From Impatiens glandulifera (lineage: Eukaryota; Streptophyta; Magnoliopsida; Ericales; Balsaminaceae): 64,000 bases of DNA. Both the position numbers and the translations under genes were made by a program. The notes beneath the pieces are model-generated. The model was not told the origin of the DNA. It did no database searches and saw nothing but the letters and a program-made list of their open reading frames with translations. This document shows positions 60 through 30,896 of this stretch, piece after piece; within the stretch, counting starts at the first letter, position 1; each line of letters begins with the position of its first letter. Location of the stretch: assembly GCF_907164915.1 (NCBI RefSeq), contig NC_061862.1:75035718-75099717 (forward strand), written 5' to 3'.

Positions 60-1820
60 ATTCATAAGAATATGATAATGGAATCGAGAAATACATCGTT
101 CTTTGAACATGTACTTCCATATAAGTCTAATGAAGAACAACGTTCTCCAAAAAGATTTCTTAAATTAGATGAAAAAGAAAAGGAGAATGAAGTTAAGGTT
201 GAACTTAGACGAAACAAACGAGCTAGAACGGAAAAATCATTTGGTATAGATTTTATTACTTTCATGATGACAAGTATTTCTCAAACGTATAATGAGGCAA
301 TTACCTCGTCTGAAGGGCCTCAATGAAAAGAAGCAATTAATAGTGAGATATAATCTATCTTACAAAACTATACAAGGGAACTAGTGGATCTTCCTCCAAG
401 AAATAAAGCACTAGGTTGCCGATAGATTTTCAAAAAGAAAATGAAAGGTGATTAATCAATTGATAAATATAAGGCAAGACTGGTGGTAAAAGGATATTGA
501 CAACGAGAAGGTCTTGATTATTTTGATACATATTCTCCGGTTACGAGAATAACTTCTATTCGATTGATTCTTGTGATTGTTTCTTTGCGCAATCTAGAAG
601 TTCATCAAATGGACAAAAAACAACTTTCTTAAATGGAGACTTGAAAGAAGAAATTTACATAGATCAACCTCAATGGTTTTCTGCTCAAGGGCAAAAAAAA
701 CAAAGTTTGTAAATTGGTTAAGTCTTTGTATGGCTTAAAACAAGCTCCAAAACAATGGCATGAGAAATTTGATCATGCTATGATCTCAAGTGGATTTAAG
801 ATCAATAAATGTGACAAAAGTATTTATATTAAATACACAAAAAATAGTTACGTCATTCTATATATTTATGTATATTACATACTTATCATTGGAAATAATG
901 ATAAAATGGTTAAATCCACTAAAGATATGTTACATTCAAAATTTGACATGAAAGATATGAGATCGACTGATGTGATTCTTGGAATCAAAGTGATTAAAAC
1001 ATCAGAAGGGATAGTTCTAAGTCAATCACATTATGTAGATAAGATCCTTGAAAAATTTAACAAGGATGATTCTGCATTGGCTAAGACTCCGATAGATACG
1101 AGTCAACATCTATCTAAAAATTGCGGAGAGAGTGTTTCTCAATTAGAATATTCTTGAATAATTGGGAGTCTAATGTACTTAATGAGTTGTACAAGACCAT
1201 ACATAGCATATATAGTAAGCCAACTAAGTAGATACACAAGTAATCTGAGTCATAAACATTGGAAAGCCTTTGTATGATTACTTAGGTATTTGAGAAATAC
1301 TCGTGATTATAGTCTGCACTACATGAGACATCCTGTTGTTATCGAAGGGTACACTGATGCTAATTGAATTTCAGATATGAAAGACTCTAAGTCAACAAGT
1401 GAATATGTATTTACACTTGTAGGTGCAACTATATATTATAAATCTTCTAAGGAAATTAATATTGCTAGATCCACGATGGAATCTGAATTTATAGCTCTTG
1501 ACAAGTGTGGTGAAGAAGTTGAATGGCTACATCTATTCTTAGAATATATTCCAATGTGGTCTAAGCATATATCAGCAATTTCTATTCATTGTGATAGTCA
1601 ATCTACGATCGGACGAGCTAAGAGTCATATGTATAATGATAAGTATAAACATATACGTCGTAGACATAATACTATTAGACAATTACTCTCTACTGGAATT
1701 ATCTCAATTGATTACGTAAAATCTAAAGATAATATTGTGGATCCATTAATCAAAGGGTTAAATAGAGAGTTGGTGTTAAAGTCCTCACAAAGAATGGGAC
1801 TTAAGCCTACAATAAGATAG
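60..1820 (+). pseudogene. Degenerate Ty1/copia pol remnant (RT and RNase H)
   Basis: This is the 3' half of a copia polyprotein running off the left edge. The integrase-RT linker reads from about 72. The reverse transcriptase follows (KARLV-like segment near 470, SLYGLKQAP near 723), then RNase H from 1377 with the [11 protein letters not shown] segment and a late [12 protein letters not shown] motif. Several in-frame stops and frameshifts break it near 320, 450, 500, 1157 and 1365. The RT active-site box reads YVYY near 865-885 where the family has YVDD, so both catalytic aspartates are lost and the copy cannot be active. Its RNase H is followed by a polypurine tract and an LTR at 2322, as expected for a 3' end. 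Confidence 0.88.
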
Positions 1821-8419: not shown

Positions 8420-10629
8420 ATGACTCTTCAATGATTTTCATGATATCGAACATGCTTGCATTTGTTTCCTCATTCATACCGTCATAGAAAGTCATACTTT
8501 TAATCTAATTAATGCTAAGACTTATAACACTAGAAAAGATTGTTAATGCCTTTTGACATCAACATACGCCAAGATGAATAAATCGTCTGCAAAATAGATA
8601 TGAGTGATGCTTTCTTCCCTATAATATGGATGGTAATAATTGGGCAGTACTTTAGAAGCATTTTAACAATTCATTCAAAGATCTCCATGATGAGGCCAAA
8701 ATGTAAGAAGAGAGAGGTTCCCTTGTCTAACTTTGTTTTCCCCTTTGAAAAACTCATCACGGATAACATTCATGCTAACAATAAAGTGATGAGTCAAAAC
8801 ATACTGCATAATTCACTCAATAAAATGCAAGATAAACCAAAAAGAGTTAAGAACTCTAGAATCAAAAGCTTTTTAAATATCCACCTTAAAAGTCACTCAA
8901 GGTGAAATTGACTTCTTATCATAGCCCTTTAATAATTCTTGCATAACTAAGATCTTATGGAAATAAATCTATCAAGGATGAATGTAAATTGCCAGGACTA
9001 ATCAGGTTTGAAATAATAGTTTAAAGCGTTTGACTATGATTTTAGAAATAATTTTTGTAGATTACATTGCAACATGATATGGGACGGAAGTCTTGAATCA
9101 TTTCGGGTGTGAAATTCTTTGGAATAAAGTTAAGAACAATGTCATTCCATTGCTTAAGAATCCTACAGTTCCAAAAGAACTCTAAAACTCGATCACTAAC
9201 AATTTATCTAACGATCCTCTAGTTAGCCTTGAAGAATGTAGCGTTAAAGTCATCCAACCATGATCTCATCCACATTAACCATCTTAATGAGCTTACTAAT
9301 ATCCTCCCATATAACCTTCATAATGACAATCTGATGCAGGAAACACAAGTAGCTTTAGGGCTCCTTTCTAGTTCCAATAAGCTCCCGATAGAAATTAATA
9401 GCCTCCTGATGCATATGTATTTTTTCCAATGTTCTAAATTTTGCTAGGCGTTAGTCGAACGCCCGACTGGGGCTAACGCTTAGGCGTTTAGGCGGGCGCC
9501 TAAGCGGGGCCTAGGCGGTGTACTTCAATTTAACAATAAATCTGTAATCAGTTATAAAAATCAAGTAAAGAGCAATTTAAATATGCAATTACAACCGTTA
9601 ATGATCCATTTCAAAATTCCAAATATGAGAATAACAAGATTCCAATCATTCCAATCATCACAAACTTCCAAACAAAACTACAAGTTTACAATACACCAAA
9701 ATTATAAAATTTCAAATTCTAATGTCCAATAGGCATAATATAAAATAACATAATAATAATAGACATGAGGTAGACTTAGAAAGTGATGAGTTAGACAACT
9801 CACTAGAAGTTCAGGTTGTAAATGATGATGATGGTAGTGGTTAAAGTGGGTAATGTCAGGGTAGAGTCTAGGTAGAGATTCAAATGTTATTTTAATTAAA
9901 AAATAAATAAAAAATAAAAAAATGGTTGGGCGCCCTAATTGATTGCCTAGGAACCATGTGTGCCGAAAAGGCGGCCGAGCGATTTTTTCAAACAAATAGA
10001 GGCTTTTCAGTGCGTTAGGCTAGCGCCGAGCGATTAGGCGACGCCTAGACCAAAATTTAGAACATTGATTTTTTCCCTTGGGTCATACTCCCATCATTTC
10101 GTTTGAGTCGAGACACACAATTTCGAAAATTTCTAGTAGAACACTTCCAATAGAAGAAATTTGTATTATTATCACCAAGCGACAACCAAATATGTCTTAA
10201 TTTCTAGCGGGAAAAACTCTCCTCACATGAGCTGAGTTCACGAAATTCAGTTAAGACTTCTTTATCATCGTTATGCCCGTGGCTCGTACCGCGACAATGT
10301 AGATGTTTGTTCTAGATTGCTTCCAACTTGGATTTAACTTTTAAGACTTTTAAGGAAATATTGTTATATATTTTCCTATCAAGCTTTTGAAACTTGATTC
10401 TAAGAAGCTTCAACTTTTGACTCACTTGGTACATCTTAGATTCAGAATTAGCTTAGCCCACACCTTATCCACAGTGTCACTGAAATCTACGCTCTTCATC
10501 TAGAAATTAAAGAACTTAAATGGTCTTTTAACTATTTTTCCTTATCTCAAGTCATCTTGATTGGGAAATGATCAAATATCTCAAGACTTAGAATTTGGAT
10601 GTGAGTTTTCGAGAATTGAATGACCCATG
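8420..10629 (-). pseudogene. LINE (L1-type) ORF2 remnant: endonuclease end and reverse transcriptase
   Basis: Read on the minus strand, from right to left: endonuclease tail with an IFDHFPI motif near 10570; a PFKFFNFW-type linker near 10500; WLSLGDNNTNFF near 10180; then the hAT insertion; EAINFYRELIG near 9400; FRPISCCNVIYKIISKIIV near 9040-9110; a KVDI..AFDS region near 8870; and the active-site box YFADDLF near 8590. Stops and frameshifts are frequent. The 3' end is missing beyond 8420. The rest of the endonuclease lies at 20662-21840, separated by the copia insertion, so both parts were once one LINE. Confidence 0.85.
9427..10067. mobile_element. Non-autonomous hAT-type element, 641 bp
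   Basis: The ends are perfect 17-bp inverted repeats (CAATGTTCTAAATTTTG and complement) flanked by an 8-bp direct repeat ATTTTTTC (9419-9426 and 10068-10075), the hAT signature. Both subterminal regions are GC-rich with many TAGGCG/CGCCTA motifs, unlike the AT-rich core. There is no transposase, so mobility would need a partner element. It interrupts the LINE reverse transcriptase. Confidence 0.88.
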
Positions 10630-10634
10630 TTTAG

Positions 10635-11750
10635 TGATAGAAAAATTAAGTAAGTTAATTTTCAAACCGGCCAGAAAACTAAACTACTATTAACTCTTAT
10701 GTGCAGGAATAGATCGACTCGTATAAACTGGCTAAAGATTGCATAAACCGGCTGAAGAACATATCAAAGTAATCCGGCTCCAGATGATCAAGCCATGATT
10801 AAAAGGAACCGGCCTCAACATTCCCAAAAGACCGGCTAGCAAAGAAAAGCTTACATCCCAGCCGGATCATACTATGAAAGAGAAAAAACGAAAACCTAAG
10901 AATTACAAAGATGACGCAATGTGACGAAATAGACGTGTCTCGGGAAATAAAAGAAGATAAGATCCGGATCAGAAGCATGCGATAAAGACAATGATGATTT
11001 GTTGATCCGACTTAGACAGCCGGAAGGTGCATGCCTGACACGTCTCCAAATCTGCAAGCCAATTACGTCATCCATTCCTAAGAGGTATATGCATGCTTGC
11101 CAAGTGTCAGGATGTTGAAACGTGCAAGCAACCTCTCTGAACCGGCGTGACCCTGAACTGACAAATCCCACGATGAAAGAAGAAAGTGACCGTTGGGAAC
11201 CTCTTCACTATAAAAGGAAGATGAAGCGACCTCATTTATTACAGTTCTGAAATAGTTAAGAGAGAGAAAGAAATCTCACGCGCGATCCAAAAATTGTTGT
11301 TTCATTTACCGAAAGCTTTATTGTGTTGTATTGTTGTATTACATCAAAGAGTGAGTTGGTGTAACCGGCGAGTAGCGAGTTAGGCTCGACCGGCAGTGTA
11401 ATTGTTGTAACTCTGAAAGTTAGTGGAGATCCTTCTCATAACCTGAGAAGAGGGGTGACGTAGGAGGGTTTGCTCCGAACATCCATAAAAAATCCTGTCT
11501 CGAGTCTTTTTACTTATTTCTTACTTATTCACACTAAAACCTAAACACTTTAACTGAAACATAATCCCACTCCTATAATCAAAACCGGTCTATTCATACT
11601 CCTTAAATCGACCTTTCATAAATCTCATTCAAGTCGCGTGTGTTGCTTCAAACTGAAATAGACATTTCTGCCCTTGAACCCGGTTCAAGAGTCTGTGACA
11701 GTTTGCGTAGTGCTGAGAAAGGTTGTAGTCTTTAATCGGACTATCACCAA
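10635..11750 (+). mobile_element. 5' LTR of the SIRE-like copia, truncated at its 3' end
   Basis: Collinear with the 3' LTR from TGATAG to CTATCACCAA. It then stops about 82 bp short of the LTR end and joins RT coding sequence directly, so the primer-binding site and the first part of the element are lost. It contains TATAAAAGG near 11211. Confidence 0.88.
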
Positions 11751-13142
11751 TGAAATAAACTCAATGAAGACGGTTTAGTTACGAGGAACAAGGCCCGGTT
11801 AGTGGCTCAAGGCTACAAACAGGAAGAAGGCGTTGATTTTGAAGAATCATTTGCCCCTATAGCTAGACTTGAGGCAATTAGAATATTTATAGCATATGCA
11901 GCTTTCAAAAATTTCAAAGTTTTTCAAATGGATGTTAAAAGCGCTTTTCTAAACGGTAAGGTAAACGAAGAGGTGTATGTTAATCAACCTCCAGGTTTCA
12001 AAAATCCAGAATACGAAAATCATGTTTACCAGTTAAACAAAGCTCTTTACGGTTTGAAACAGGCTCCAAGAGCCTGGTATGACACATTAACGCAATTCTT
12101 ATTTAATCACAAGTTTACAATAGGTTCAGTCGATAAAACACTTTTCAAATTTGAGAAAAAGGAACACATATTACTTGTTCAAATATATGTTGATGATATT
12201 ATTTTTGGATCAACCGATCCAAAGCTATGTGATAAATTCTCGAAAATGATGACTGACAAATTTCAAATGAGTATGATGGGAGAACTGAGCTTTTTTCTAG
12301 GACTTCAGGTTAAGCAGATCGAGACCGGAACATTCATAACCCAGTCAAAGTACACAGTCGAACTGCTAAAGAAATTTGGAATGAATACATGTGCTGAGGC
12401 GGCTACACCAATGAGCTCCTCCGTAAAGTTAGACAACGATGAGGATGGTCAAGCCGTTGACATCACAGCATATCGAGGAATGATTGGATCCTTGCTCTAC
12501 TTAACAGCCAGCCGACCAGACATCCTTTTTGCGGTCGGAGTATGCGGGAGATTTCAAGCCAATCCAAAACAATCACATTACACCGCGGCTAAAAGAATAT
12601 TGAAATATCTGAAGGGAACTCAAGATGTGGGACTCTAGTACCCAAAAGACTCAAGCTTCAATCTCATAAGTTACTCAGACGCGGATTACGCAGGATGCAA
12701 AATTGATAGAAAGAGTACAAGTGGAACTTGCCAATTCCTGGGTGACCGGCTCGTTACATGGAACAGCAAGAAACAAACCTCAATTGCAACATCAACCGCA
12801 GAGGCAAAGTACCTAGCAGCCGGAAGCTGTTGTGCACAACTCCTCTGGATCCAATAACAACTAAGGGATTTCGGAGTAATAACTGAAGAATCACCAATAT
12901 TTTGTGACAACACCAGTGCGATAGCGATCACATACAATCCAGTGCTGCACTCAAGAACGAAACACATTGACATAAGACATCATTTCATCCGGGAGCATGT
13001 TCAATAGAAGTACATCCGGCTGGAATATGTCTCAACTGAGAAACAAGTAGCTGACATCTTCACCAAACCGCTACAGGAAGCTAAGTTTTCTCATTTCAAA
13101 AACATTCTAGGACTTATTGATATCAAGCAACTTATACCATGA
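11751..13142 (+). pseudogene. Copia reverse transcriptase-RNase H (5'-truncated pol)
   Basis: One reading frame enters at the deletion junction and ends at TGA 13140-13142. The RT shows [34 protein letters not shown] and an intact YVDD box at 12186-12197. RNase H follows with YSDADYAGC, STAEAKYLAAGSC and [13 protein letters not shown]. Three in-frame stops interrupt it: TAG 12636-12638 and 13005-13007, TAA 12855-12857. Without integrase and protease it cannot act alone. Confidence 0.92.
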
Positions 13143-13770
13143 TCATACATGCATACTGTTTACATACATCATCATGAAAAATCGGGATATGCGTTCAGGG
13201 ATAAGCTCTCGCTTCTCAAACCATATTCAAATAGGCCATTACATATTCAAGGATGCTAACCGGGAGGAAGTCTCCGGTTATGCTTGATTATTTCATGATG
13301 TCAAACCACATGTATACTCACTACGCGGTTGAAATGACCTGGCAGAAGTGGATAAACTCAATCCAAAGTTGAACAAATGTTGATACAATTCGACATTTCG
13401 TCACATCGGAATAAAATATACAACTAAAACCGGTCACGGAAAACCGATTAGTACAAATGCATTTTGGTTTAGATAAACTGAACTTTTTCGGTTAACTTGG
13501 GATAATTAACCGTGTTTTCATGCATACATTGAGAAATGAAGCCTGTAATTAATAAAATAGTTTACCTTAATCGAGATGACGACATGTATCCATCATCAAG
13601 AGAGGGAGACTAACATCTTGTCAATAGATTTATTATCATCATGAATATCCTGGTAATGATTAACTTTGCATTGGAAACAAACATTATACACTTCAACAAG
13701 TTAAAGCCAATTAACTAATCGATGACATCACTAAGCATGCTTAGTCTATTGATCTAGCAGAATCCCTGGC
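13143..13770 (+). other. Non-coding spacer between pol and first accessory gene
   Basis: No ORF or recognisable domain. It probably contains the upstream promoter region of accessory gene A; several CCGGTT-type motifs recur here and elsewhere in the element. Confidence 0.5.
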
Positions 13771-13778
13771 TATATAAA
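13771..13778 (+). promoter_or_regulatory. TATA box of accessory unit A
   Basis: TATATAAA lies 85 bp before the ATG of ORF A. Between them is a CTTCACAA-rich leader without ATG, like a plant 5' UTR. Confidence 0.6.
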
Positions 13779-13855
13779 CAACCCTTTACTCTTCACAATA
13801 CTTCACAAAATTCACTATTCACAAAAAACTCTTGAGCTAAAACTATCTCAAGACC

Positions 13856-14592
13856 ATGAACTCCGATCCACTCGTAAAGAAAATTTTGTTGGATGATTTC
13901 AATTCTATTTACCAATACGAAGACCATGATATCAAAGACATGTTCTTAGCCGTTGAAAGAAGCGGGCTAAGTGGATTTTTGGAGAATAGATTCATCATCG
14001 ACTACTTGGTAGTCGATGAGTTCTTCGAAACTGCAAAAGAAGTGCACCGAGACATAATCGTGGCACGAGTATATGGTCAATCCTTTCTATTCAGCGAGAC
14101 GGATTTCGCTGAATACTGCGGTTTACCCACTGAAGGGGTAACCGACCTCACCTACTCCCCGGTGACCATTGAAGAAATGTGTCATCGTTTTCCAACTCTA
14201 ACACCCCGGTTAAACCCTGGGGTGCTAAAAGCCAACTATCTCACAAGTACCAGATTCTGTGTGAGATTCTGGGAAAGTCAGTTCTGGGTAGAGAGAAAAG
14301 CTACTACTACACCCAGAGGCTCTTTGAGATGATGATTGCCGTCACGGTTGGGACACCGGTAAACTGGTCTTGGATCATCTTCAGCAACCTGAAGAAGATG
14401 ATTCTCTCAAACAAAACCGGTTATGCTCCTCAGCTAAGCGGTTTTTGTGCTAGTCTGGATATCCACTCCGGACCCTTCGTCACTCTTCATCCGAAACACG
14501 TGCTCACGAAGGAGAGAATCCAAGAGCTGATCGACCGGTGGGAAGCAGCAAAGGCTAAGAGGAATCAAGCTACCGGTTCATCTAATGTTTAA
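13856..14592 (+). pseudogene. Accessory ORF A of copia element (paralogue 1 of 3), one frameshift
   Basis: A protein of about 245 codons of unknown function. The start ATG at 13856 gives MNSDPLV, the same MN-D/E pattern that starts paralogues B and C. Shared landmarks are DDF near residue 13, SGLSGFLEN near 40, VDEFFETA near 58, a G-x-S-F beta-like segment, FAEYCGLPTEG near 90, and a C-terminal half with EMMIAVTVGTPVNWSWIIF and GYAPQL. A frameshift between about 14185 and 14215 moves the frame; the second part ends at TAA 14590-14592. No signal peptide or membrane segment is visible, so it is not env-like in form. The domain recalls the family annotated as a putative plant transposon protein (PF20167-like), but that link needs a profile search. 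Confidence 0.8.
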
Positions 14593-14917
14593 ACCTTCTT
14601 CATCTATTTTCCTATTCACCAAATCGGTAATTTTGTTGTACTATCGGCTTGGTACGTTTTATTAATGAAAATCTTTTCTTTCTCTTTCGATCAAAAACAA
14701 ATGAATCCTAAAGAAATAACCAACATTAAATGCACCGTATCAAACCAAATCAAATCAGTCTTGAAAACTGAAATATTCGCTTCCCAAGAAGCATGCTTAA
14801 TCTGATTTAGACCATACAATCCTTTACTCCCTTGAAAACTGATAAAGAATTTATGACCATACATAAACGGTCTGATTTTTTCAAATATTCTCATTAAATG
14901 CAACCAACCGCCCACAC
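14593..14917 (+). other. 3' UTR of unit A and upstream region of unit B
   Basis: Starts with a TTTTGTTGTACTAT segment and an AATGAAAAT motif, resembling the sequence after ORF B (TTTTGTTGTAAAACC, 15820-15835). The similarity outside the ORFs suggests whole transcription units, not only coding parts, were duplicated. Confidence 0.5.
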
Positions 14918-14925
14918 TATAAAAG
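14918..14925 (+). promoter_or_regulatory. TATA box of accessory unit B
   Basis: TATAAAAG lies 112 bp before the ATG of ORF B. The intervening leader is CT-rich (CTCCTCTCTCTCTAAG) and lacks ATG. Confidence 0.65.
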
Positions 14926-15029
14926 AGGGTCTCATCCTTCTTCATCAAATCACACTTCAAATACTCCTCTCTCTCTAAGTTCGAAACTTCAAAAATCTCA
15001 TTCACTCCTTTCTCATATCCTCTTCCAAA

Positions 15030-15791
15030 ATGAATGCCGAGTTGAGAAACACAATTATTGTCGATTTCCGTGAAATGATGAACGCCCGGTTTCAAGAAAC
15101 CATATTCTCACCGATCGTAGAATCAAGGCTACAAGGATTTCTTGAAGGTTCGGACACCATCCTCGAAGAGGAGGTGTATGAATTCTTCAACAACGGGCAC
15201 ATTCTTTATGATGGCAGCATAAGAACCATCATTGACGGAAGATTTCTTCAGATCACCGAAGAACACTTTGCCCACTTTTTCGAACTCCCAACCGAAGGAT
15301 TTTCGGAATTCCCAACGCCATACTTTCCGGCTAAGGAAGACTATGCTTTCATCTTTTCCTGCTCCATTCATCCGGTCGATGACCACGGAGAAAAGGACGA
15401 TTTTGCTCCTCAATACCAAGTATTTCATGACTTGGTCCAGCGATCTATCATGGGCCGAATGCCAAATCAAAACTACAACCGGGAGGCTTTCGACATCATG
15501 ATAGCCATCGTCAGAAAATTGCCCATAAACTGGGCTACCTATCTCTTCAACAACTTGAAGAAACTTGTCTCTGCTCTAAGGGGAAGGATCGGCTTCGCTC
15601 CCTAAATCACCCGATACTTGGAGGTTCATCGTCGCAACCTCGGGCCCGGTGTTCCTGTCGGACCGGCCAACACCATGACTTTATCCATGCTGAACAGATG
15701 GATATCGAGGATTGAAGAACGAACAACCGACAACACTGTGGACAAATGGGTTGACAGAATGATCGAGGGGGAGTGGCTCGATCTTCTCTAA
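15030..15791 (+). pseudogene. Accessory ORF B of copia element (paralogue 2 of 3), one stop
   Basis: About 253 codons from ATG 15030 to TAA 15789-15791 in one frame, with a single internal TAA at 15603-15605. At that point paralogue A has a glutamine (APQ against AP-stop), so CAA to TAA is the likely lesion. Landmarks align with A: VDFREM, LQGFLEGSD, EVYEFFNNG, FFELPTEGF, DIMIAIVRKLPINWATYLF and GFAP. After the stop the frame stays open for 62 codons, ending in an acidic EGEWLDLL tail. Function unknown; no membrane segment. Confidence 0.82.
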
Positions 15792-16024
15792 GTTTATGTA
15801 TTTTCCGATTATCTGGTCATTTTGTTGTAAAACCAGACAACCATTTAATTTCTTTCCGCTTCGGCTTTATTTATAAAACTTCATATTTTTAAGTCTCCGG
15901 TTTTCACATTAGTTAATCTCCGCATTTACCGCCTAAAGTTACTGCAGTAACTTTTGGAGGGAAAATTGGCGCCAAAACACAAACCAAGTGACGGTTCAAC
16001 TTCTAATCGTTCAAAACCGCTCCC
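15792..16024 (+). other. 3' UTR of unit B and upstream region of unit C
   Basis: No ORF. Contains TTTTGTTGTAAAACC shortly after the stop and TTTATTTATAAAAC, possible polyadenylation context, then a GC-richer stretch before the TATA box of unit C. Confidence 0.5.
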
Positions 16025-16032
16025 TATATAAG
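16025..16032 (+). promoter_or_regulatory. TATA box of accessory unit C
   Basis: TATATAAG lies 115 bp before the ATG at 16140, followed by a TTTTCTCTCTCT leader like those of units A and B. Confidence 0.65.
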
Positions 16033-16139
16033 ACCAAAACAGTTCATTATTTGCAAACGTTTTCTCTCTCTAAAAACTTAAACTCTCTCTTGATTTCCGA
16101 TTATCTTTGATCTTCATCTCCTTTATTCATAATCTCGTC

Positions 16140-19036
16140 ATGAATCTAGATAAAGCACCATTTAAATACATGTTGCAGGTCGATTTCAATGACATTGATG
16201 AAAACGCTGCGGAAGAATACAAGGTTGTGCTGCAATCGTTGAGAGATTCTGGGTTAGAAACGTATCTTTCTAGCCCGTTCGTCATGCATCCGACGGAAGT
16301 TGAAGAGTTCTTGACGACGGCGACTCTAACGAATGGGACGGTCTCCGCCACTGTGAACGGCAAGGCAGTTAATGTAACGGAAGTAATTTTCTCGGAGGCG
16401 CTCGGTTTGCCGAACACCGAATTGGACTTCAAAACAAGTCTGTCGGATGCGGAATCTAACGTTGTCCGGCTAGCCATATCGAGTGATGACAAGGATCTGG
16501 TGACTCACTCCAGCCGGAAGAACAAAATCAAGTCAGAGTTCAGATGGCTGGTGGATATAATTTCCAAATCACTTCAGGGTAAAGGAGGAAACTTCGACAA
16601 CCTGACAAAGTTGAAACTGAAGATGTTGATGGCAATTGTCCGCGGTGACAAGATTGACTGGGGAACCGTTCTGTTCGAACAGTTCTGCGAAATGGTGGTA
16701 AAGAAGGATGGTCGGGTTCAGGCATACGCCATGTAGATAGGGAAGATCCTACAGTTCCTTCGAGTAGAACTCGGGGAAGGTGAACTGCTCCCATCCGGTA
16801 ATGTTCTAAACTCTGAGCAGATGAGCAAAAGAACTGCTAAAGCGGCTAGGCCGAAATCATCCAGAACCAAGTCATCAAAAGGAACCAGTTCGTCTGCACA
16901 GGCTGGTGAAAGCTCAAAACAAGTCGATCATAAGGGAAAGGCTGTTCAAACCGAAGTCCCGTAGAAAAAGGGAAGAAAGAAGAAGTCAGCGAAGAAGAGC
17001 ACCCAGAAACCGACAGATTCCGAGAAAACTCTATCCTCGGACAATTCACCAAAAAGAACCGCAGAGATTTTTTAGTCGATCGCAATCAACACAGTCCATC
17101 CCAATCCGGCCGACTCTCCCTCGTCAAGGCAAGCCGAACCCTTGGGGAGCCAAGAAACTCAGTCAAAGTCGAAGGAGAATCCGACTAAAGAGGTTAGTAT
17201 TCATTCCGAAAACTCCAAGTCCCCAATCAAAAACCTCGATGAAATAATGGCCGACGTGGGTTTAAGAACCTTAGAGGTCATAGTGGACGTAGTCCAAACT
17301 ATTGTTCATGAAACCGAAGACGATGTAACGAGTCTTCTCAAACCAACTGATTAGGTTGAAGCAACCGGTCAACCCAAAATCAATCCGGTCAAAGAAACGG
17401 CCAACACATAAAACATCACCCCTCTGGCTCAAGAGGGAAATATTGAAGAAAAAGAACCATCCGGTTCCATTGGGGACAAATCCGTCCCAACCGAATCAAC
17501 TATCCAACCGGATCAAGACGGGCAAACGAATCCACCGATCACACCTGAAGGCCCATCTCAGGTTAGCAAAGGCAAAGAAGTTTTGATTGAAGGTTCTCCT
17601 ATGAGAGGGGAAAGTACGTTGCAAACCAGTTCACAAACTGAAATTATGACCGAAGCCGAGGTGCCCATTTCAGTAGAAGAAGAGGAGGAAATGTTCCAAA
17701 AGTTCATCAAGGATATGAACAAGGAAGCTGAAGAGATGGCCACACCGTATCACCTATGGGTCAAGTTGCGTTGTGAAATGAAGCTATCAGACATGATCCC
17801 TGATTTTAGCGGCAACGAGTATTGGGAGAAACTCGTAGCCTTAGAAGAAGAAGCTCTTAAGGTAACTAGTACCGATATAATCCAAGCCGCATACGCCAAA
17901 ACTATTGTGATACAAGAATACGCCAGGCTGTAGGCAGTAGATGATGCCATGAAGAAGGCAGAAGGGGCAGAACTAACTCCAATGGAGTTAAAGGTGCTTG
18001 AGCGGTTTCATATAGTACGGAATGATCTTACACGGAATGTTGACCGGCTCGAGGCAGAATGGAGAGACGTGTGCAAACATGTTTTAATGCATGTCGATCA
18101 TTTTCGAAGCAAACCTATTTTTCATACCGGAGAGTCTTCTAAGACAGTAGAAAACCGGAGCAGTGCTCCTCCACAGACTGTTCAGGCTCCGGGACTTGAG
18201 CAAATGAAGGGAGTAGTTGTTGACACAATTATCTCTTGTCTTCACAAGTACAACATTGCTATAGATGAGAAAATTGCAACCGTTCAAACAAATCTGACCG
18301 AAACCGTCCGGGCATCTATTCACTCTAAGATTGTCGAAACGGTTCAAACATCAATCAAGTCAATGATCGACGAATCTGTTCAAACGCAACCGCTGCTCTA
18401 CTTGAAATGATGCAGGCTATGGCAGCTCAGATTGAGGAGTTGTCTAAACTGCAAGCTAATAAGACTCAAGAGCAGATTCGTGCTGATGCCGAAACAGCTA
18501 GGAGACTTCAAGACGAAGACGAGGCTAGGAAACGATTAAGAAAGGAAATCGAAGATAAGGATCATGAGTTGGCCAAGAAATGCAATGAGGAAGAAAAGGC
18601 CGCTCAAACGGAATCCACACCGGCACAAGCCTCTCACTCTATGAAAACAAGGAACAAGAATCAGCGTAAGGCAATTGTGACCTTGATGAAACAGGTGGAA
18701 CGAAGCGGTTTAGGAGAGCTTCAACCGGATGGACAATTCGAGGAACCTCTAGATGAAGAAGAAGAGGAAGATGCTTCACGACTTAACCGGCAAAAGAAGA
18801 AAGCAGTTGAAGCATCAACCACACTTCCGAGCTCTGGTCCGATCGTTGCCCAATCATCTCGCCCACCCAGACTAGTAAGCGGTGGCTTCGGGTTCAACCA
18901 GCGAACTCCCGATATATCAAGTGTATTTACCATATGGCAAATTGACGCAGAAAGAAGGGAATGGGAATGGAAGGCGAAAGAGGAGGAGGAAAGGAAGCAG
19001 AAAGAGAAAGAAAAGGGGGGATCATCCAATCCTTAG
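16140..19036 (+). pseudogene. Accessory ORF C of copia element (paralogue 3 of 3) with long C-terminal extension
   Basis: The ATG at 16140 gives MNLDKAP, matching the starts of A and B. The first 200 codons hold the shared domain: VDFNDID, SGLETYLSS, EVEEFLTTA, EALGLPN, then KMLMAIVRGDKIDWGTVLF and YAM just before the first stop. Unlike A and B it continues for about 760 codons: a Ser/Lys-rich stretch with a basic KKGRKKKSAKK cluster (about 16965-17000), an acidic low-complexity part, a helical region near 17680-18050, and a Glu/Lys/Arg-rich likely coiled coil at 18407-18620 and 18950-19020. The frame is broken by TAG 16734, 16962, 17073, 17352 and 17931, TAA 17409, and a one-base frameshift near 18395-18410; otherwise it is continuous. 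Function unknown; a nuclear or nucleic-acid-binding role is only a guess from the basic cluster. Confidence 0.8.
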
Positions 19037-19190
19037 CTCATTTTTCTTTTATGAACATTTTACTTATGCTACTTACTGGTTGTTTTGCTTCAGAACTAAG
19101 TTTATTTTCTTAACCTTTCAAAGTAATGACTTCACTACACATCTTTTCAAAAATCAACTTGTTTTGAAATTTTTCTTAGAAAAACATCAA
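19037..19190 (+). other. 3' UTR of accessory unit C
   Basis: AT-rich sequence without an ORF of note between the stop of ORF C and the tandem PPT-LTR junction repeats. Confidence 0.45.
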
Positions 19191-19456
19191 AAATGGAGAA
19201 ATCGTTAAACACATTTTTCAAACCGACCACACATTACGAGTTTTGAATATTTATTCTAAATAATCAAAAAGGGAGAAATTGATAGAAAAATTAAGTAAGT
19301 TAATTTTCAAACCGGCCACACATTACGAATTTTGAATATTTATTCTAAATAATCAAAAAGGGAGAAATTGATAGAAAAATTAAGTAAGTTAATTTTCAAA
19401 CCGGCCACACATTACGATTTTGAATATTTATTCTAAATAATCAAAAAGGGAGAAAT
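19191..19456 (+). repeat. Tandemly repeated PPT-LTR junction (88-89 bp units)
   Basis: The block from LTR start TGATAGAAAAATTAAG through CAAACCGGCC, CACACATTACG, TTGAATATTTATTC and the PPT AAAAAGGGAGAAAT repeats with LTR-like starts at 19280 and 19369 before the true LTR start at 19457 (spacing 89 and 88 bp). A more degenerate unit lies just upstream from about 19191. The first 38 bp of the LTR and the PPT are thus present three times or more. Confidence 0.88.
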
Positions 19457-20656
19457 TGATAGAAAAATTAAGTAAGTTAATTTTCAAACCGGCCAGAAAA
19501 CTAAACTACTATTAACTCTTATGTGCAGGAACAGATCGACTCGTATAAACCGGCTGGAGACTGCATAAACCGGCTGAAGAACATATCAAAGTAATCCGGC
19601 TCCAGATGATCAAGTCATGATTAAGAGGAACCGGCCTCAACATTCCCAAAAGACCGTCTAGCAAAGAAAATCTTACATCCCAGCCGGATCATACTATGAA
19701 AGAGAAAAAAACGAAAACCTAAGAATTACAAAGATGACGCAATGTGACGAAATAGACGTGTCTCGGGAAATAAAAGAAGATAAGATCCGGATCAGAAGCA
19801 TGCGATAAAGACAATGATGATTTGTTGATCCGACTCAGACAGCCGGAAGGTGCATGCCTAACACGTGTCCAAATCTGCAAGACGGTTACGTCATCCATTC
19901 CTGAGAGGTATATGCATGCTTGCCAAGTGTCAGGAAGTTGAAACGTGCAAGCAACCTCTCTGAACCGGCATGACCCTGAACTAACCAATCCCACGATGAG
20001 AGAAGAAAGTGACCGTTGGGATCCTCTTCACTATAAAAGGAAGACGAAGCGACCTCATTTATTACGGTTCTGAAATAGTTAAGAGAGAGAAAGAAATATC
20101 ACGCGCGATCCAAAAATTTTTGTTTCATTTACCGAAAGCTTTATTGTGCTGTATTGTTGTATTACATCAAAGAGTGAGTTGGTGTAATCGGCGAGTAGCG
20201 AGTTAGGCTCGACCGACAGTGTAATTGTTGTAACTCTAAAAGTTAGTGGAAATCCTTCTCATAACCTGAGAAGAAGGGGTGACGTAGGAGGGTTTGCTCC
20301 GAACATCCATAAAAAATCCTGTCTCGAGTCTTTTTACTTATTTCTTACTTATTCACACTAAAACCTAAACACTTTAACCGAAACATAATCCCACTCCTAT
20401 AATCAAAACCGGTCTATTCATACTCCTTAAATCGACCCTTCATAAATCTCATTCAAGTCGCGTGTGTTGCTTTAAACTGAAATAGACATTTCCGCCATTG
20501 AACCCGGTTCAAAAGTCTGTGACAGTTTGCATAGTGCTGAGAAAGGTTGTAATCTTTAACCGGACTATCACCAAATAGTGTTGTGTTGTGTAAGCGACTA
20601 CCCTTTCAGAAACCGGAAACAACCCCGGTCCTCCAAGGGCGTCCTCGATCCTAACA
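19457..20656 (+). mobile_element. 3' LTR of the SIRE-like copia, 1200 bp
   Basis: Starts TGATAG and ends CCTAACA, followed by target duplication TTTAG. It contains a CACTATAAAAGGAAG promoter segment near 20030 and many CCGGYT motifs. It is complete at the 3' end, unlike the 5' copy. Confidence 0.9.
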
Positions 20657-20661
20657 TTTAG

Positions 20662-21840
20662 TTAACTAATCCTATATCGATGCGACTCTTCCTCATTTGA
20701 TCAATACCCCCGCATGGAAGACCAAGTAAAGAAGTTTCCAGAGAACGTCGATTCAATACAGCCCATGTCCCTGATACAGTCATTGAAGTCTAACACCCCT
20801 TGGGTGATTTCAAAAGTTAGAGATCTTTCATTCTCATGCATAGTAATGTTGAAGTCCCCAATAACAGACCATGGTTTGCTATCGTCAATACTTGCCCTTA
20901 ATCTACTTCAAAGCTCTCTTATGTTGTTATCTGAATTATTACCATAGACAATGGCAATATTGAGAACAATGAAAGTCTTCTTGTATTTAATTTCAACCAT
21001 AATAACTTGATCACTATTATGAATTTCTTTAGCTTCATTCATCTTTGAATTCCATCCAACCCAAATTCTTTAGGACCTCTTATTCAAATTGTGAATAAAC
21101 TTTCATCCGTCAGCAAAACAAAGTGAACCAATTCTATCAACGTTGTTCAACTTAACTTTAGTCTCAAGGATTTCTATAACCGTAAATTTCTCCTTCTCAC
21201 TAATTCTTCTAATCTCCTTGCTCTTGAGGGAATTAAAATCCCTAAAGTTCCAATTCATAATAATCATAAATCTTTGTAGGATCTCGACTTCCGACTTTCT
21301 CCTCCTACTTACTTTGATTCCTTTTCTTATTCTCCATTTTCCTTGTCGGTGATGTTTTAGACTCAACATAGTTAATATCTTTGCTAGATTGTGCAGTTTA
21401 ATTTGAAGGCAACAATTCCAAATTACTACTGTCCTTGATTGGGCTAGAATCACTAGTTTCCAATGAGGTATAGTTGATAGTTGGGTCATTGGTATCGACA
21501 TTTTGCCTTGCATTCATTGCATCTTCATCCTTAGAAGGAAGTTGTGATTCGACAGTTGTTGGATTTGTTGCATCAGGATTAGTGCTTCTACCTGCACCAC
21601 TCTGCCCATTAAGATTGTCTTCTTCCACATTCATTTTCCTTGCTTTTTTATTCTCCAGGTGCCCTTGTTTTTTTATTCATCATTCGGCCCACTAAGTCTG
21701 TCAATTTCCTCGTATGTTCCAAGCAAATCACAGCATTAAACTTATGTCCTTCATTCTATTTTGTTGTCGGATCTTCCTTGCAAACCAATTTTATTATAAC
21801 CCTATATAGAATTTGGATCGGTTTGACAAATTTTTAATAT
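20662..21840 (-). pseudogene. LINE remnant: ORF1 end and endonuclease domain
   Basis: Minus strand, from right to left: an ORF1-like tail (ORF at 21398-21634, Asn/Ser/Thr-rich), then an ORF2 endonuclease starting near 21270 with MNWNFRDFNS, VIGDFNITMHEN near 20870, FFTWSSMRG near 20720, and RKSRIDIGLVN near 20690. This is the N-terminal part of the LINE whose C-terminal part is at 8420-10629; the copia insertion with TTTAG ends separates them inside the endonuclease domain. Multiple stops and frameshifts. Confidence 0.82.
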
Positions 21841-22868
21841 TTGATCCTATAAATTCAATCATTTTGTAAGTGTAAGCTAATTTGAATCAATTTTGACATT
21901 AATCGAACAAAATTAACTAAAAGATTCTAACATAATATGAATTTCAAACCAAATTTCTTATTAAACATAAATGAAAGAGTCAGGTTAATATATATATATA
22001 TATATATATTATTCATATATTATAATTTAAATTAATATATTTCAGCAAATTAAATTATTTTAATTATTTTAATAAATTTTATGTTGGACTTTAATATATC
22101 AATTTTTATCATATTAAAACCCTAAATCCCCTCCTCGGTCCGGATTAGGATGTTATATTAGTTGGATGGTTCAAATCTATTTTTTGTTTTTATTTTTATT
22201 TTTATTTTTATTTTTATTTTTAAGAGTAAATTAACCCATTACTAGTGATAAATGCTATCTAATAAACTAAATGTCTTCCCATTTGGAATCCCTTCTTAAA
22301 ACTTAATAAGTTAAGATTGATAATTATTGTGAACTTCTATAACTTTTCAAATTATATAAAAAGAAAAAAGAAAAACAGTTTAAGAGTAATTATTAAAACT
22401 TTATTACAAAATATGTATATTAAATTAGTAATTGAAAAAAGTGAAGGAGAGAGAAAGTTACCCCTGAAAATGTGTAGTCGTTTCTTTGCATAAAGGACGA
22501 GGACTAACTCTCTTATACAAATCTCTTTGTATAATTAGCTTCAGCGGTTTTCTTAAAATTGTAATAGTGTTTTTTTACCCAAAGCCCAATAGTAAAGGAT
22601 AAGCAAGTTTTTAATGACAATGATCAATCTATGTAAAATTTACAATAACTTTAATCACATTGCAATCACTTACTACATCTACTTTGATCGCGGTATTCAA
22701 TCCACACTTACGTCTCCTTCCGAATATGACCTCCATATTTAGACACCAAAAGTAGCAATTTCAAAATTACCAAGCCAAATACTAGCATCCCTTACATTAT
22801 TTTGCAAGCTCCTTCCTTTTTGAGAGTGCATATGTCATTGCTACTCTTTTTTCTTTTTCTTTTTTCTT
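21841..22868. other. AT-rich spacer with FN3K promoter-like scrap
   Basis: No coding gene. Contains an (AT)n tract near 21989-22009, a (TTTTTA)n run at 22183-22222, and at about 22380-22545 a segment (GAGAGAAAGTTACC, AAAATGTGTAGTCGTTTC) similar to the upstream regions of the FN3K copies at 42930 and 51440. Confidence 0.6.
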
Positions 22869-23070
22869 TTATGTTTTCTTACCTAAGTCAATAGCTCGGG
22901 CAATCAATCTCGTACTAAAAGATCTACTGTGTCATCAACTACTTTAAAGAGATGCACGTGATACTCTTTCAGTTTCAACCGATTGCGGATATATTATTAT
23001 ATAATATAGATCTATTTCTTATAACACCGGTTATCATGTTGGAACAACAAGCAATTTAGAAAAACAAAGT
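22869..23070. repeat. 200-bp segment duplicated upstream of both gypsy LTRs (left copy)
   Basis: From TATGTTTTCTTACCTAAG to AACAAAGT it matches 29094-29297, the sequence directly before the 3' LTR, with few changes. It therefore occurs outside the 5' LTR as well as inside the element, which a simple insertion does not explain. Confidence 0.85.
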
Positions 23071-24754
23071 TGTCACACCCAAAAATTCATTTCAGACAGA
23101 GTAACTTCGGTCCTGGCCAAAACCAAGGACACAAGATAAATCTATGTCAGGGCCGAGGAAAATTTGTGTCAGGGCCGAGAGAAATCTATGTCACGACCGA
23201 AGGGTTCGACCGAGGGGGTCCGACCAATTATATTTTTCTAACTCATTTTTACCAACCCATATTTATGTCACCTCATGCTTATATCACCTCATGCTTCACC
23301 AACCCATACTTATGTCACCTCATGCTTATGCCACCTCATGCTTCACCAACCCATACTTATGTCACCTCATGCTTATGTCACCTCATGCTTCACCAACCCA
23401 TACTTATGTCATCTCATGCTTATGCCACCTCATGCTTCCAACACATACTTATTCAACCAATGCCTAGGACATGCAGGTGATCAGCCCTTTTCATTCATAA
23501 CTTGTCCAACCCAAGCCTATGACAAGCAGGTGACCAACCATTTCTATTAAACAATCATTTAATCCAGCCGATGACAAACAGGTGACCAGCCCTCTTCATC
23601 ACCTTTTTATTAATCACATGCTATGACAAGAAGGTGAGCAACCTTTTTTGTTAAACCCATGTCTATGACAAACGGGTGACCAGCCCTTTTTATTAAACCC
23701 ATGCCTATGACAAGCTGATGACCATCCCTCTTCATCATTTACTTATCCACCCATGCCATGACTAGCTGGTGACCAGCCTTATTAAATACTATATATATTG
23801 CACTCATTCATTCATTATTCCTTTTCCTCTTCCTTTATACTAAGAAAACATAAGGCATACTTTAGAAGCAAAATCATACAACTTTAGCAAGATCGTCTAA
23901 GGAAAGATCTTTTCTCAACTCATCTTTAGAAACCCACACTAGTTTATATAATCTGTTTTCAAAGGTATGATCTGTTTTCAAAGGTATGATATGTTTTCAA
24001 AGGTATGATACGTTTTTGTGAACAATGATATATGAATTGGACGGATATGGGAAGAAGGCTAGCCAGGTTGAGCTCTAGTAGTCTGATTCCAAAATTATGT
24101 GTTGGGTTTTATTGGAACTGGACTTCGGGGATGAGCTCTGAAAGATCCTACCCACACATACAAGTGTCTAACCAAGTTGTGGACTTTAGGGATAGACTCC
24201 GAAGAGTTCCCTTCCAACTATGTGCTCAAACTAGATTCCTAACTTTCAGAATCACCTATGAATTGTAAAGGGACATTATGTGCTCAAAATGTTTCTATTC
24301 CATCACTATGATAAATTATTTTATAAGTCAGCACGTCAATACAAAGAAGCTTTTACATGTTTTTTCTATAATCTTTTAAAATGCTTATTGGGTCTTTAGA
24401 CTCACTATGCTTGTATGGTGTAGGTACACAACAATAGTTTTATGTTGACATAATGAAGGGAGGCTTGGAGAGTAGGCAAGGTGCAGGGGAGGTGTGTGTG
24501 TGGGAGGAGGGACAAATGAAGTTCAAGTACTTTTTAGGGTCTAGCACTTAAAGACTGTTGTTTTTGTAACAATGGACCATCTCTTAAATGTTTTTGATGT
24601 AAAGGACCGTGTTTGCTTTTAAAAGACCGAATTTTTGTAATGCTACTTATATATATAACTCTTTCGCATATGTTTCTGTTTTTCCGTTTATGTATGTAAC
24701 GTTTTAAAACATCCATCACTCGGTCTAAGTAATTTATGAGTCAGAGGTGTTACA
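23071..24754 (+). mobile_element. 5' LTR of Ty3/gypsy element, 1684 bp
   Basis: Ends are near-perfect inverted repeats, TGTCACACC and GGTGTTACA. The first 150 bp hold 2-3 units of the TGTCAGGGCCGAG minisatellite. At 23240-23450 is a second array built on CATGCTTCACCAACCCATAC and CTTATGTCACCT, and at 23470-23780 a series of GACAAGCAGGTGACCAGCCC repeats. A TACTATATATATTGCA promoter-like segment is near 23785. The primer-binding site follows two bases after the end. Confidence 0.9.
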
Positions 24755-27900: not shown

Positions 27901-29093
27901 TGCTTGAAAGAATTTGGTTGGAACAGGCTCAAGATCCCCAGCTGACCACATGGAGGCAAAGAGACGAGAAGAAAGGTACATTATTGCACTCAACTAAAAA
28001 CAATATGGTGTATCATAAAGACAGGTTGTGGGTACCATCTGTGGACTCCTTAAGACAAGAAGTTATGGTTGAGGCGCATTCAACACCCTACTCAGTTCAT
28101 TCAGGTAGCACCAAAATGTTCAAAGATCTGCAGACTTTATATTAGTGGTCAGGAATGAAGAAGGACATCATAAAGTTCATAAGTGAATGTTTAACCTGTC
28201 AACAAGTCAAAATTGAGCACCAAAGGCCTTCTAGGTTGTTATTCCTGTTGCCAATTCCGGTTTGGAAATAGGAAGACATTGTTATGGACTTTGTAGTCGG
28301 TTTGCCCAAGACCTTGCGAAAGATGAATGGCATATGGGTCATAGTGGACCGTCGCACCAAGTCTGCTCATTTTCTACCAATTCGAACAACATTTTCAATG
28401 ACTCAATATGCGGAGCTGTAACTACAAGAGATTGTTCGACTGCATGGCATACCAGCAAGGATAGTTTTAGACCGAGACCCACGTTTTACTTCACATTTTT
28501 GGGAAAATCTTCATAGGGGTCTAAGAACGAAGTTGTCCTTCAGTACTGCATTTCATCCTCAAACCGACGGTCAATCCAAACGTGTGATCCAAACTCTTGA
28601 GGACCTGTTGTGGGCTTGTCTTATTGACTATGGAGGCAATTGGGAACCCAGACTATCGTTGATAGAATTCGCCTACAACAATAGTTTCCAATCTTCTATT
28701 GGAATGGCGCCCTTTGAAGCATTGTATGGGAAGAAGTGTAGGACACCACTACACTAGGATAAAGTTGGCGAGAGAATAGTGATTGGGCCAGAAATCGTAT
28801 CAAACACCGTGGACCTAGTGGGAAAAATCAGGAAGAGGTTGTTAGCAGCTCAAAGTAGGCAGAAAAGCTATGCTGGCAAGAAACGCCAAGATCTAGCTTT
28901 CAGCAGGAGCGACCACGTTTTTTTGGAAGTTTTTCCTTGCAAAGGTTTCATCAGATTTGGGAAAAAGGGCAAGTTGAACCCAAGGTACATCGGCCCCTTT
29001 GAAATTCTGGAAGAAATAGGGGAGGTTGCTTACAGACTTTCCATACCCCCAAATCTTGATACAATCCACAATGTTTTTCATGTTTCCAACGTT
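24906..29093 (+). pseudogene. Ty3/gypsy gag-pol, Tekay/Del-like, degenerate
   Basis: From ATG 24906: gag (IWWQGAKSTLDL near 25310, retrotransposon gag core); a decayed zinc knuckle near 25885; protease with DTGATNSF near 26060; RT from 26529 ([41 protein letters not shown]); RNase H from 27430 ([18 protein letters not shown]); integrase from 27890 with an H-H-C-C finger, MDFVVGLP, DRDPRF, HPQTDGQSKR and YNNSFQSSIGMAPFEALYG. Most of it is one frame with about ten stops (for example 25014, 25212, 25761, 27265, 28144, 28268) and a short frameshifted stretch at about 26430-26535. The frame stops resembling the family just after NVFHVS near 29085, so no chromodomain is present. Confidence 0.92.
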
Positions 29094-29297
29094 TTTTATG
29101 TTTTCTTACATAAGTCAATAGATCAGGCAATCAATCTCGTACTAAAAGATCTACTGTGTCATCAACTACTTTAAATAGATGCATGTGATACTCTTTCAGT
29201 TTCAACCGATTGCGGATATATTATTATATAATATGGATCTATTTCTTATCACACTGGTTATCATGTTGGAACAACAAGCAATTTAGAAAAGCAAAGT
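29094..29297. repeat. 200-bp segment duplicated upstream of both gypsy LTRs (right copy)
   Basis: Matches 22869-23070. It abuts pol abruptly where a C-terminal extension would be expected and ends in AAAAGCAAAGT before the 3' LTR, only weakly like a polypurine tract. Confidence 0.85.
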
Positions 29298-30896
29298 TGT
29301 CACACCCAAAAATTCATTTCAGACCGAGTAACTTCGGTCCTGGCCAAAACCAAGGACCCAAGATAAATCTGTGTCAGGGCTGAGGAAAATCTGTGTTAGG
29401 GCCGAGAGAAATCTATGTCACAACCGAAGGGTCCGACCGATTATATTTTTTAACTCATGCTTCACCAACCCATATTTATGCCACATCATGCTTATGTCAT
29501 ATCATGCTTCACCAACTCATACTTATGTCACATCATGCTTATGTCACCTCATGCTTCACCAACCCATACTTATGCCACCTCATGCTTCACCAACCCATAC
29601 TTATGCCACATCATGCTTATGCCACCTCATGCTTCTAACCCATACTTATTCAACACATACCTAGGACAAGCAGGTGACCAGCCCTTTTCATTCACAACTT
29701 GTCCAACCCATGTCTATGACAAGCATGTGACCAGCCCTTTCTATTAAACAATCATTTAATCCAGCTGATGACAAGCAGGTGACCAGCCCTCTTCATCACA
29801 TTTTTATTAATCACATGCTATGACAAGAAGGTGACCAGCCCTTTTTGTTAAACTCATGCCTATGACAATCAGGTGACCAACTCTTTTTATTAAACTCATG
29901 CCTATGACAAGCTGATGACCAGCCCTCTTCATCATTTACTTAATCACCCATGTCATGATCAGCTGGTGACCAACCTTATTAAGTACTATATATATTGCAC
30001 TCATTCATTCATTTTATCCTTTTCCTCTTCCTCTTCCTCTTTACTAAGAAAATAGAAGACATACTTTAGAAGCAAGATCATAACATCTTTAGAAAGATCA
30101 TACAACTTTAACAAGATCATCTAAGGAAAGCTCTTTTCTCAAGTCATCTTTAGAAACCCACACTAGTTTATATAATCTGTTTTTACAAAGTATAATCTAT
30201 TTTCAAAGGTATGATATGTTTTCAAAGGTATGATTTGTTTTTCAAAGGTATGATACGTTTTTATGAACAATGATATATGGACTGGACAGATATGGGAAGA
30301 AGGCTATCTAGGTTGAGCTTTGGTAGTCTGTTTCCAAAATTATGTATTTGGTTCTATTGGGACTAGACTTCGGGAATGAGCTTTAGAAGATCCTTCCCAC
30401 ACAAACACGTATCTAACTAGGTTGTGGACTTTAGGGATAGACTCTAAAGAGTGCCCTTCCAACTATGTGCTCAATCTGGATTCCTAAGTTTCAGGATCAG
30501 CTCTGAAATGTAAAGGGATATTATGTGCTCAATATGTTTCTGTTCCATCACTATGATAAATTATGTTATAAGTCAGCACATCAATACAAAGGCATTTTTA
30601 CATATTTTTTCTATACTCTTTTAAAATGTTTGCTGAGTCTTTAGACCCACTATGCTTGTGTGGTGTAGGGACACAGCAATAATTTTCTGTTCACATAATG
30701 AAGGGAGGCTTGGAGAGTAGGTAAGGTGTAGGGGAGGTGTGTGTGTGTGTGTGTGTAGGAGGATGGACAAATGAAGTTCAAGTACTTTTTAGGATCTAAC
30801 ACTTAAAGATCGTTGTTTTTGTAACAATGGACCATCTCTTAAATGTTTTTGATGTAAAGGACCGTATCTGCTTTTAAAAGACCATGCCACATGCCA

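Follow-up and report, generated by a model that had tools for sequence, protein, structure and literature searches.

Three paralogous genes with promoter-like upstream regions in a Sirevirus-like copia retrotransposon of Impatiens glandulifera

Paralogous Genes between pol and the 3' LTR

The DNA analyzed here is a 64,000-nucleotide stretch of the genome of Impatiens glandulifera (NC_061862.1, positions 75,035,718–75,099,717 of the forward strand; hereafter the window), which contains a decayed Ty1/copia retrotransposon. Between the pol remnant and the 3' long terminal repeat (LTR) of this element lie three genes, here named A, B, and C, which are paralogous, keep the same order in other copies, evolve under purifying selection and are each preceded by a TATA box at a conserved position. 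Judged from sequence, they are a real multi-gene module with a promoter-like region before each gene. We consider it probable that A–B–C is an old accessory module of a Sirevirus-like copia lineage, in which each gene would have its own RNA polymerase II core promoter. The genes and TATA boxes of the window copy are as follows.

13771–13777, + strand: TATA box of A, TATAWAW 85 nt before the ATG
13856–14592, + strand: gene A, with one frameshift between about 14192 and 14217
14918–14924, + strand: TATA box of B, TATAWAW 112 nt before the ATG
15030–15791, + strand: gene B, with one in-frame stop at 15603
16025–16031, + strand: TATA box of C, TATAWAW 115 nt before the ATG
16140–19036, + strand: gene C, with the shared domain to about 16830 followed by a long charged tail; interrupted by six in-frame stops and, near 18405, by a shift

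The paralogy of the three genes, which an earlier note had read from shared motifs, was confirmed by local alignment, with z-scores of 9.2 (A–B, N-terminal half), 15.5 (A–C, N-terminal half), 29.4 (A–B, C-terminal half), 10.0 (A–C, C-terminal half), and 21.1 (B–C); none of the 500 shuffles made per alignment reached the observed scores. The common domain comprises approximately 200 residues, and since the alignments stand 9 to 29 standard deviations above the shuffles at an identity of 23–35%, the duplications must be old. The gene starts are spaced 1174 nt (A to B) and 1110 nt (B to C) apart. Relatedness of the sequences behind A and B, also proposed earlier, was weakly supported, with 1 of 200 shuffles equally good. 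The tail of C, described as an extension of ~760 codons, is indeed long and charged but is interrupted in the window rather than forming one open reading frame (ORF), and none of the three genes is intact in this copy. Regions of the tail were matched in loci L064–L067 and L075–L077 of the same genome, with an open frame of at least 566 codons spanning most of C in L075.

On the forward strand of the linker there are four TATAWAW motifs (1.8 expected), three of which are located at −85, −112, and −115 of the three ATGs, as had been noted. The extended form CTATAWAW occurs three times on this strand, always at the TATA sites of A, B, and C, and none of 2000 shuffled sets had all three. The leaders are all G-poor and free of ATG; the description of them as CT-rich holds for B (67% C+T) and C (71%) but not for A (53%). 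Within the window, no two of the upstream regions resembled each other significantly: of 200 shuffles, 29 did as well for A–B, 104 for A–C, and 10 for B–C.

Conservation in Close Copies

Copies were sought in the I. glandulifera assembly (Balsaminaceae, Ericales; 653.9 Mb in 1110 contigs). From a search with B, 150 of 18,170 first-look candidates were scored, all 150 with at least 75% identity, so that the copy numbers given here are minimum values. The close-copy set consists of the 30 best places, that of the window among them. Whether related copies keep all three genes had been the key question of the earlier note, and the order A–B–C was found to recur in 25 of the 29 other close copies (A in 27, B in 29, C in 27). 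The TATA spacing recurs as well: in 19 of these 25, each of the three starts has a TATAWAW in the interval from −130 to −60. Counted with a separate profile, the motif stood at this distance ahead of 70 of the 74 gene starts, compared with a background of 0.09 for places picked at random in these loci.

All three genes showed low ratios of nonsynonymous to synonymous substitution rates (dN/dS). Mean pairwise values, calculated by the Nei–Gojobori method, were 0.16 for the first piece of A (24 copies), 0.14 for its second piece (21), 0.14 for B (30), and 0.18 for C (13), with codon-bootstrap ranges within 0.10–0.23. The requirement for a gapless frame removed 6, 9, 0, and 17 of the 30 copies, respectively, and picking loci by their match to the B protein biases the value for B downward, though not those for A or C. 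The reverse transcriptase (RT) gave 0.25–0.40 in three pairs, and from this small comparison the accessory genes are therefore at least as constrained as RT.

These copies bear on two alternatives. Genes are known to be captured by LTR elements in plants (PMC7264820), and A, B, and C could be host genes or fragments picked up by one copy; this is highly improbable, as it is contradicted by recurrence of the set in 25 of 29 close copies and all three copies read from a second subfamily described below, and in part in remote loci. Translation from the LTR transcript alone, by stop-codon suppression (as reported for the env of SIRE1; PMC2829016) or by re-initiation, we regard as scarcely credible. 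Each gene has its own ATG and stop, with about 350–440 nt of non-coding DNA before the next start, and the homologous ATG is kept in 24 of 27 copies for A, 29 of 29 for B, and 21 of 27 for C.

A Second Subfamily

In a genome search with RT, 139 of 24,490 candidates were scored. Many of these places have a pol frame of 1089 codons in common, a sign that a sister subfamily may have been active recently. The distances between RT and B were compared in part, using 39 RT places (33 first listed, including the window's, and six added because B had been seen nearby) and 57 of the 150 B places; B lay at the expected distance in 5 of the 33 listed places and in all six of those added. Three RT places without a listed B (L075–L077) were picked for their long pol frames and read downstream. 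A, B, and C were present in order in all three, with identities to the window's genes of 79–90% (A), 67–68% (B), and 64–69% (C). These copies are less decayed than that of the window, yet carry some stops.

In L075, L076, and L077, TATAWAW is positioned at −91, −89, and −88 of A, at −110, −110, and −104 of B, and at −123, −123, and −113 of C. All nine TATA boxes are thus kept, while the whole 5-kb stretches hold just 3, 4, and 3 such motifs on the forward strand. Divergence from the window's subfamily is considerable (dS 1.0–1.9), with dN/dS of 0.07–0.14, and of 0.06–0.19 among the three copies themselves. As neutral DNA would not be expected to hold three heptamers in place at this dS, we take this to be the strongest evidence that the TATA boxes matter.

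An internal promoter for the env-like genes of Sireviruses was proposed in 2002 by Peterson-Burch and Voytas; according to PMC2829016, none was found, and the authors of that paper themselves made no conclusive identification of one. The present element makes this proposal directly testable: it has three genes with low dN/dS and with TATA boxes whose position is fixed across subfamilies, and a single chromosome-scale assembly offers many copies of it.

Protein Relatives and Remote Subfamilies

Protein database searches for relatives were negative both for C alone (208 candidates, none at E ≤ 0.001) and for the A/B/C alignment (2184 candidates, none at E ≤ 1). RT, used as a control, gave 7992 matches, with named plants among the 120 matches listed; plants are therefore represented in the database, and the probable cause of the negative result is divergence of the accessory proteins beyond the reach of its word filter and E-value. 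Within those listed, the nearest RT matches were P0007 and P0002. P0007 is a predicted I. glandulifera protein in which an accessory domain, recognized by reading, stands behind RT, and its tail matches locus L031 (contig C5) at 100%. BLASTP of A, B, C, and the P0007 tail against the 120 listed proteins found no further convincing accessory domain.

The earlier suggestion of a link to PF20167 (Transposase_32) points to a remote, sub-threshold relative of the accessory proteins: B scored 16.3 bits (E 0.0096) and C 25.1 bits (E 1.9e-5) against a cut-off of 45 bits, and A gave no hit. Nine pieces that together span most of A, B, and C were scored by Kyte–Doolittle hydropathy, the only criterion applied, and contained nothing resembling a membrane segment (highest 19-residue mean 1.27); this agrees with the earlier note and argues against a true envelope. 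The shared domain was modeled twice with AlphaFold, with mean predicted local distance difference test scores of 54.8 and 55.3, and neither model gave a usable fold. A relationship to plant mobile domain proteins is conceivable. Foldseek searches of PDB (both models) and BFVD (C model) returned nothing at E ≤ 0.001, a PDB sequence search gave three hits with a best E of 0.22, and no relative was found in the viral and prokaryote contigs searched.

The genome was also searched with the P0007 tail; of 16,416 candidates 150 were scored, the most distant at 44% identity, and the 30 best loci were read over ~3.5 kb each. Seven of these loci carried accessory domains in all three positions, 17 in the last two positions, one in the first two, and five in the middle position only; the A, B, and C labels are positional here, because the query domains were partly drawn from the same loci. 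In a tree of 45 domains, for which the program warns of long branches meeting, the middle genes grouped with the window's B (97/91) and the last genes with the window's C (99/99).

Upstream of 27 remote B orthologs, TATTTAAAG was the best conserved 9-column window of about 230 (0.942). TATTTAA, which can serve as a TATA variant, falls in a single alignment column in 25 of the 27; where the ATG is clear (21 orthologs), its distance to the ATG is 94 to 143 nt. By eye, it was also seen at −82 to −107 in four of seven remote first-position upstream regions, with a near variant in the other three. Pairs of remote upstream regions exceeded the 95% shuffle level in 143 of 189 A–B, 10 of 84 A–C, and 36 of 324 B–C comparisons, and 4 of 6 tested pairs of A and B regions from the same element beat all 300 shuffles. 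From this A–B likeness it follows that A and B were duplicated together with their upstream regions. The upstream region of the window's B resembles that of 16 of 27 remote B orthologs and 1 of 12 remote C orthologs; that of the window's C resembles 5 of 12 remote C and 4 of 27 remote B regions, and that of the window's A resembles 7 of 27 remote B regions.

A number of observations weigh against an ancient module with three TATA-driven promoters. In the close copies, conservation of the TATA box is no better than that of its surroundings for A (rank 142 of 295) or B (71 of 395), with C ranking 21 of 395. A domain at the A position was detected in only 8 of the 30 remote loci, and four first-position remote genes adjoin B in the tree with the window's A outside that group, so that the remote A is identified by its position. 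In the remote subfamilies, the strict TATAWAW is no more frequent than background (3 of 37 against 0.05), and the remote C orthologs have no clear TATA. The earlier interpretation is supported by recurrence and low dN/dS, and less so by the remote subfamilies, in which A often goes undetected and strict TATAWAW does not exceed background.

Two further observations of this kind favor splicing of the LTR transcript onto acceptors in the pyrimidine-rich leaders, in which case the TATA motifs would not be the main start sites. The P0007 gene model fuses RT with the leader and first part of a B ortholog (by eye), the product that splicing would yield, and 85% of the 27 remote B orthologs retain an AG near −43. 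Splicing has also been predicted for the env-like genes of Bagy2 and Athila and is reported for such genes (PMC2829016, PMC7264820). We nevertheless judge this explanation unlikely: it does not predict a TATA or TATTTAAAG element fixed in position across subfamilies, no leader AG is kept in at least 50% of 12 remote C orthologs except one at −2, and gene models of the P0007 type are themselves predictions.

Proposed Expression of the Module

On the preferred reading, that of separate internal promoters, A and B would have arisen from duplication of a whole cassette of upstream region and ORF, with C as a further sister bearing a long charged tail. We infer that transcription starts at the TATA sites, so that an RNA polymerase II core promoter at each gene would allow three proteins to be made apart from the LTR transcript carrying gag-pol, while full-length RNA would carry the module to new sites. 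For the proteins, a non-structural accessory role in trans seems most likely, a best guess made by analogy with gene23 of the Grande element.

Upstream of C, the palindrome is followed by TTGGCGCCAA, TGACGGTTC, the TATA box and the CT-rich leader. The first three of these form one block.

15925–15997: C upstream block, with an imperfect palindrome at 15925–15964, TTGGCGCCAA at 15966–15975, and TGACGGTTC at 15989–15997

Among 27 close copies, 21 retain TTGGCGCCAA and 22 retain TGACGGTTC; among L075–L077, each of the two motifs is present in 2 of the 3 copies. The remote C orthologs have GACGGTT in 8 of 12 cases and AAACCCTA in 11 of 12. We take TTGGCGCCAA to be E2F-like and AAACCCTA to be telo-box-like. 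The best conserved 9-column window upstream of the remote C orthologs (loci among L031–L060) was AAACCCTAA, which also resembles a telo-box. Separately, YCYAACGGYY, the cell-cycle motif MSA, lies upstream of the LTR TATA on the reverse strand of both LTRs (11188 and 20011).

A more elaborate version of internal promotion, which we offer tentatively and with low confidence, is a regulated programme as in a complex retrovirus, achieved by three differently wired internal promoters and not by splicing, whose proteins would prepare the cell. The conserved palindrome and E2F-like site of C could then link this gene to S phase, and the proteins might counter silencing or help nuclear steps, apart from LTR transcription of gag-pol.

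Relationship to Known Elements

The element resembles Sireviruses, having an AT/TG attachment site, several polypurine tracts (PPTs) near the 3' LTR, a mid-LTR TATA and a sense extra ORF region between pol and the 3' LTR. The first two of these belong to the definition of Sireviruses (PMC2829016). The terminal PPT octamer AGGGGGAG expected 10 bp before the 3' LTR was not found, AGGGAGAA occurring at exactly −10; octamer variants are reported in two elements (PMC2829016). The palindromic CGG–CCG boxes are also missing, CGG-N0-5-CCG being absent from both LTRs. As this octamer and the LTR boxes are absent and the nearest RT matches, P0007 and P0002, carry no lineage name, membership of the Sireviruses is not claimed.

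Compared with SIRE (Maximus) elements, the window element is alike in its copia RT, sense 3' coding region after pol, several PPTs, AT/TG junction and TATA near the middle of a 1.2-kb LTR. It differs in carrying three paralogs with separate TATA boxes and no membrane segment found, instead of a 3' envelope-like ORF, and in having AGGGAGAA and no boxes where SIRE has AGGGGGAG and CGG–CCG boxes. According to PMC6317226, 74% of SIRE elements contain sense 3' extra ORFs, which fall into 19 groups that share little or no similarity. That survey counted ORFs of at least 250 codons; genes the size of A and B could fall under this limit, and such modules may be commoner than known.

Among other elements, the sunflower Athila 14 has an ORF1-type 3' ORF with PF20167 (PMC11728184), which shares with A–B–C the sense orientation, the place between pol and the 3' LTR and the remote PF20167 similarity; Athila 14 is, however, a Ty3/gypsy element, unlike the present copia element with three genes and PF20167 below its curated cut-off. 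Grande, which is gypsy-type, also has an accessory gene between pol and the 3' LTR, namely gene23 (own promoter, nuclear protein; cited in PMC7264820), but this is single and antisense, in contrast to three sense paralogs. Retand (PMC11963269) likewise has extra ORFs and tandem repeats in a long region that separates pol from the 3' LTR, but it is gypsy-type, and its ORFs are mainly antisense with a TRP28 domain, a domain other than that found here; two additional transmembrane ORFs are also described for it (PMC12582370). According to PMC11728184, which cites three older papers, plant elements may carry three extra ORFs for env-like proteins at their 3' side; this may refer to separate elements. 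In the literature searched, which left most subscription papers outside, there was no description of three paralogous, separately promoted accessory genes in one element.

Structure and Decay of the Element

The element (10635–20656) belongs to Ty1/copia by its copia-type RT (PF07727, E 2.5e-63) between LTRs and its 5-bp target-site duplication (TSD), TTTAG. Its remaining features are as follows.

10630–10634: TSD TTTAG, left copy, identical to the five bases at 20657–20661
10635–11750, + strand: 5' LTR, last ~80 bases deleted; LTR TATA at 11209
11751–13142, + strand: pol remnant, most of RT and then the RNase H region; three in-frame stops
19215–19495, + strand: tandem repeat of an 89-bp unit, 3.2 copies, each with the PPT AGGGAGAA, the AT/TG junction and the first LTR bases
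19457–20656, + strand: 3' LTR, 1200 bp
20657–20661: TSD TTTAG, right copy

The LTR TATA lies 574 bp into the 1200-bp LTR. The coordinates and main features of the earlier note were right, but it had missed one deletion, which took the end of the 5' LTR, the primer-binding site, gag, protease, integrase and the start of RT. This loss is a defect of the window copy, since upstream of copy L061 an LTR, zinc knuckle, Pol_BBD, gag_pre-integrs, integrase core and RT are present in copia order. The bases after the 5' LTR of L061 look like a decayed match to the tRNA-Met complement, the primer-binding site being deleted in the window.

The two LTRs of the window copy differ at 40 of 1113 aligned bases, 30 of the mismatches being transitions. 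From these transitions 4–5 stops were estimated for the window copy, against 10 in-frame stops seen at 152 sites one transition from a stop. C contributes 6 stops at 78 sites, all six within the 51 sites preceding its shift, and although numbers are small, damage to C may date back to the parent copy.

The PPTs of the 89-bp repeat are located at 19270, 19359, and 19447. In another copy (L061 2051–3353 with L064 2359–3665), both LTRs start one 89-bp unit earlier (68 mismatches in 1302 aligned bases), which looks as if plus-strand synthesis had begun at an upstream PPT. That copy is embedded in a (GCTTAAT)n satellite-like array (L061 2000–2050); its flanks are TAATG and ATGCT, inside satellite, and an exact TSD was not obtained. 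Folding at the PPT/LTR junction was no better than in shuffles (z −0.51), and 10000–21500 contains no Rfam match.

Elsewhere in the window, direct repeats at 22847–23735 and 29074–29932, approximately 6.2 kb apart with best pieces 91–93% identical and with short tandem repeats, are perhaps the LTRs of another element. Other copia RT fragments, 31–41% identical to the RT of the element, occur at 31716–32549 (−), 54438–55253 (−), and 483–1316 (+).

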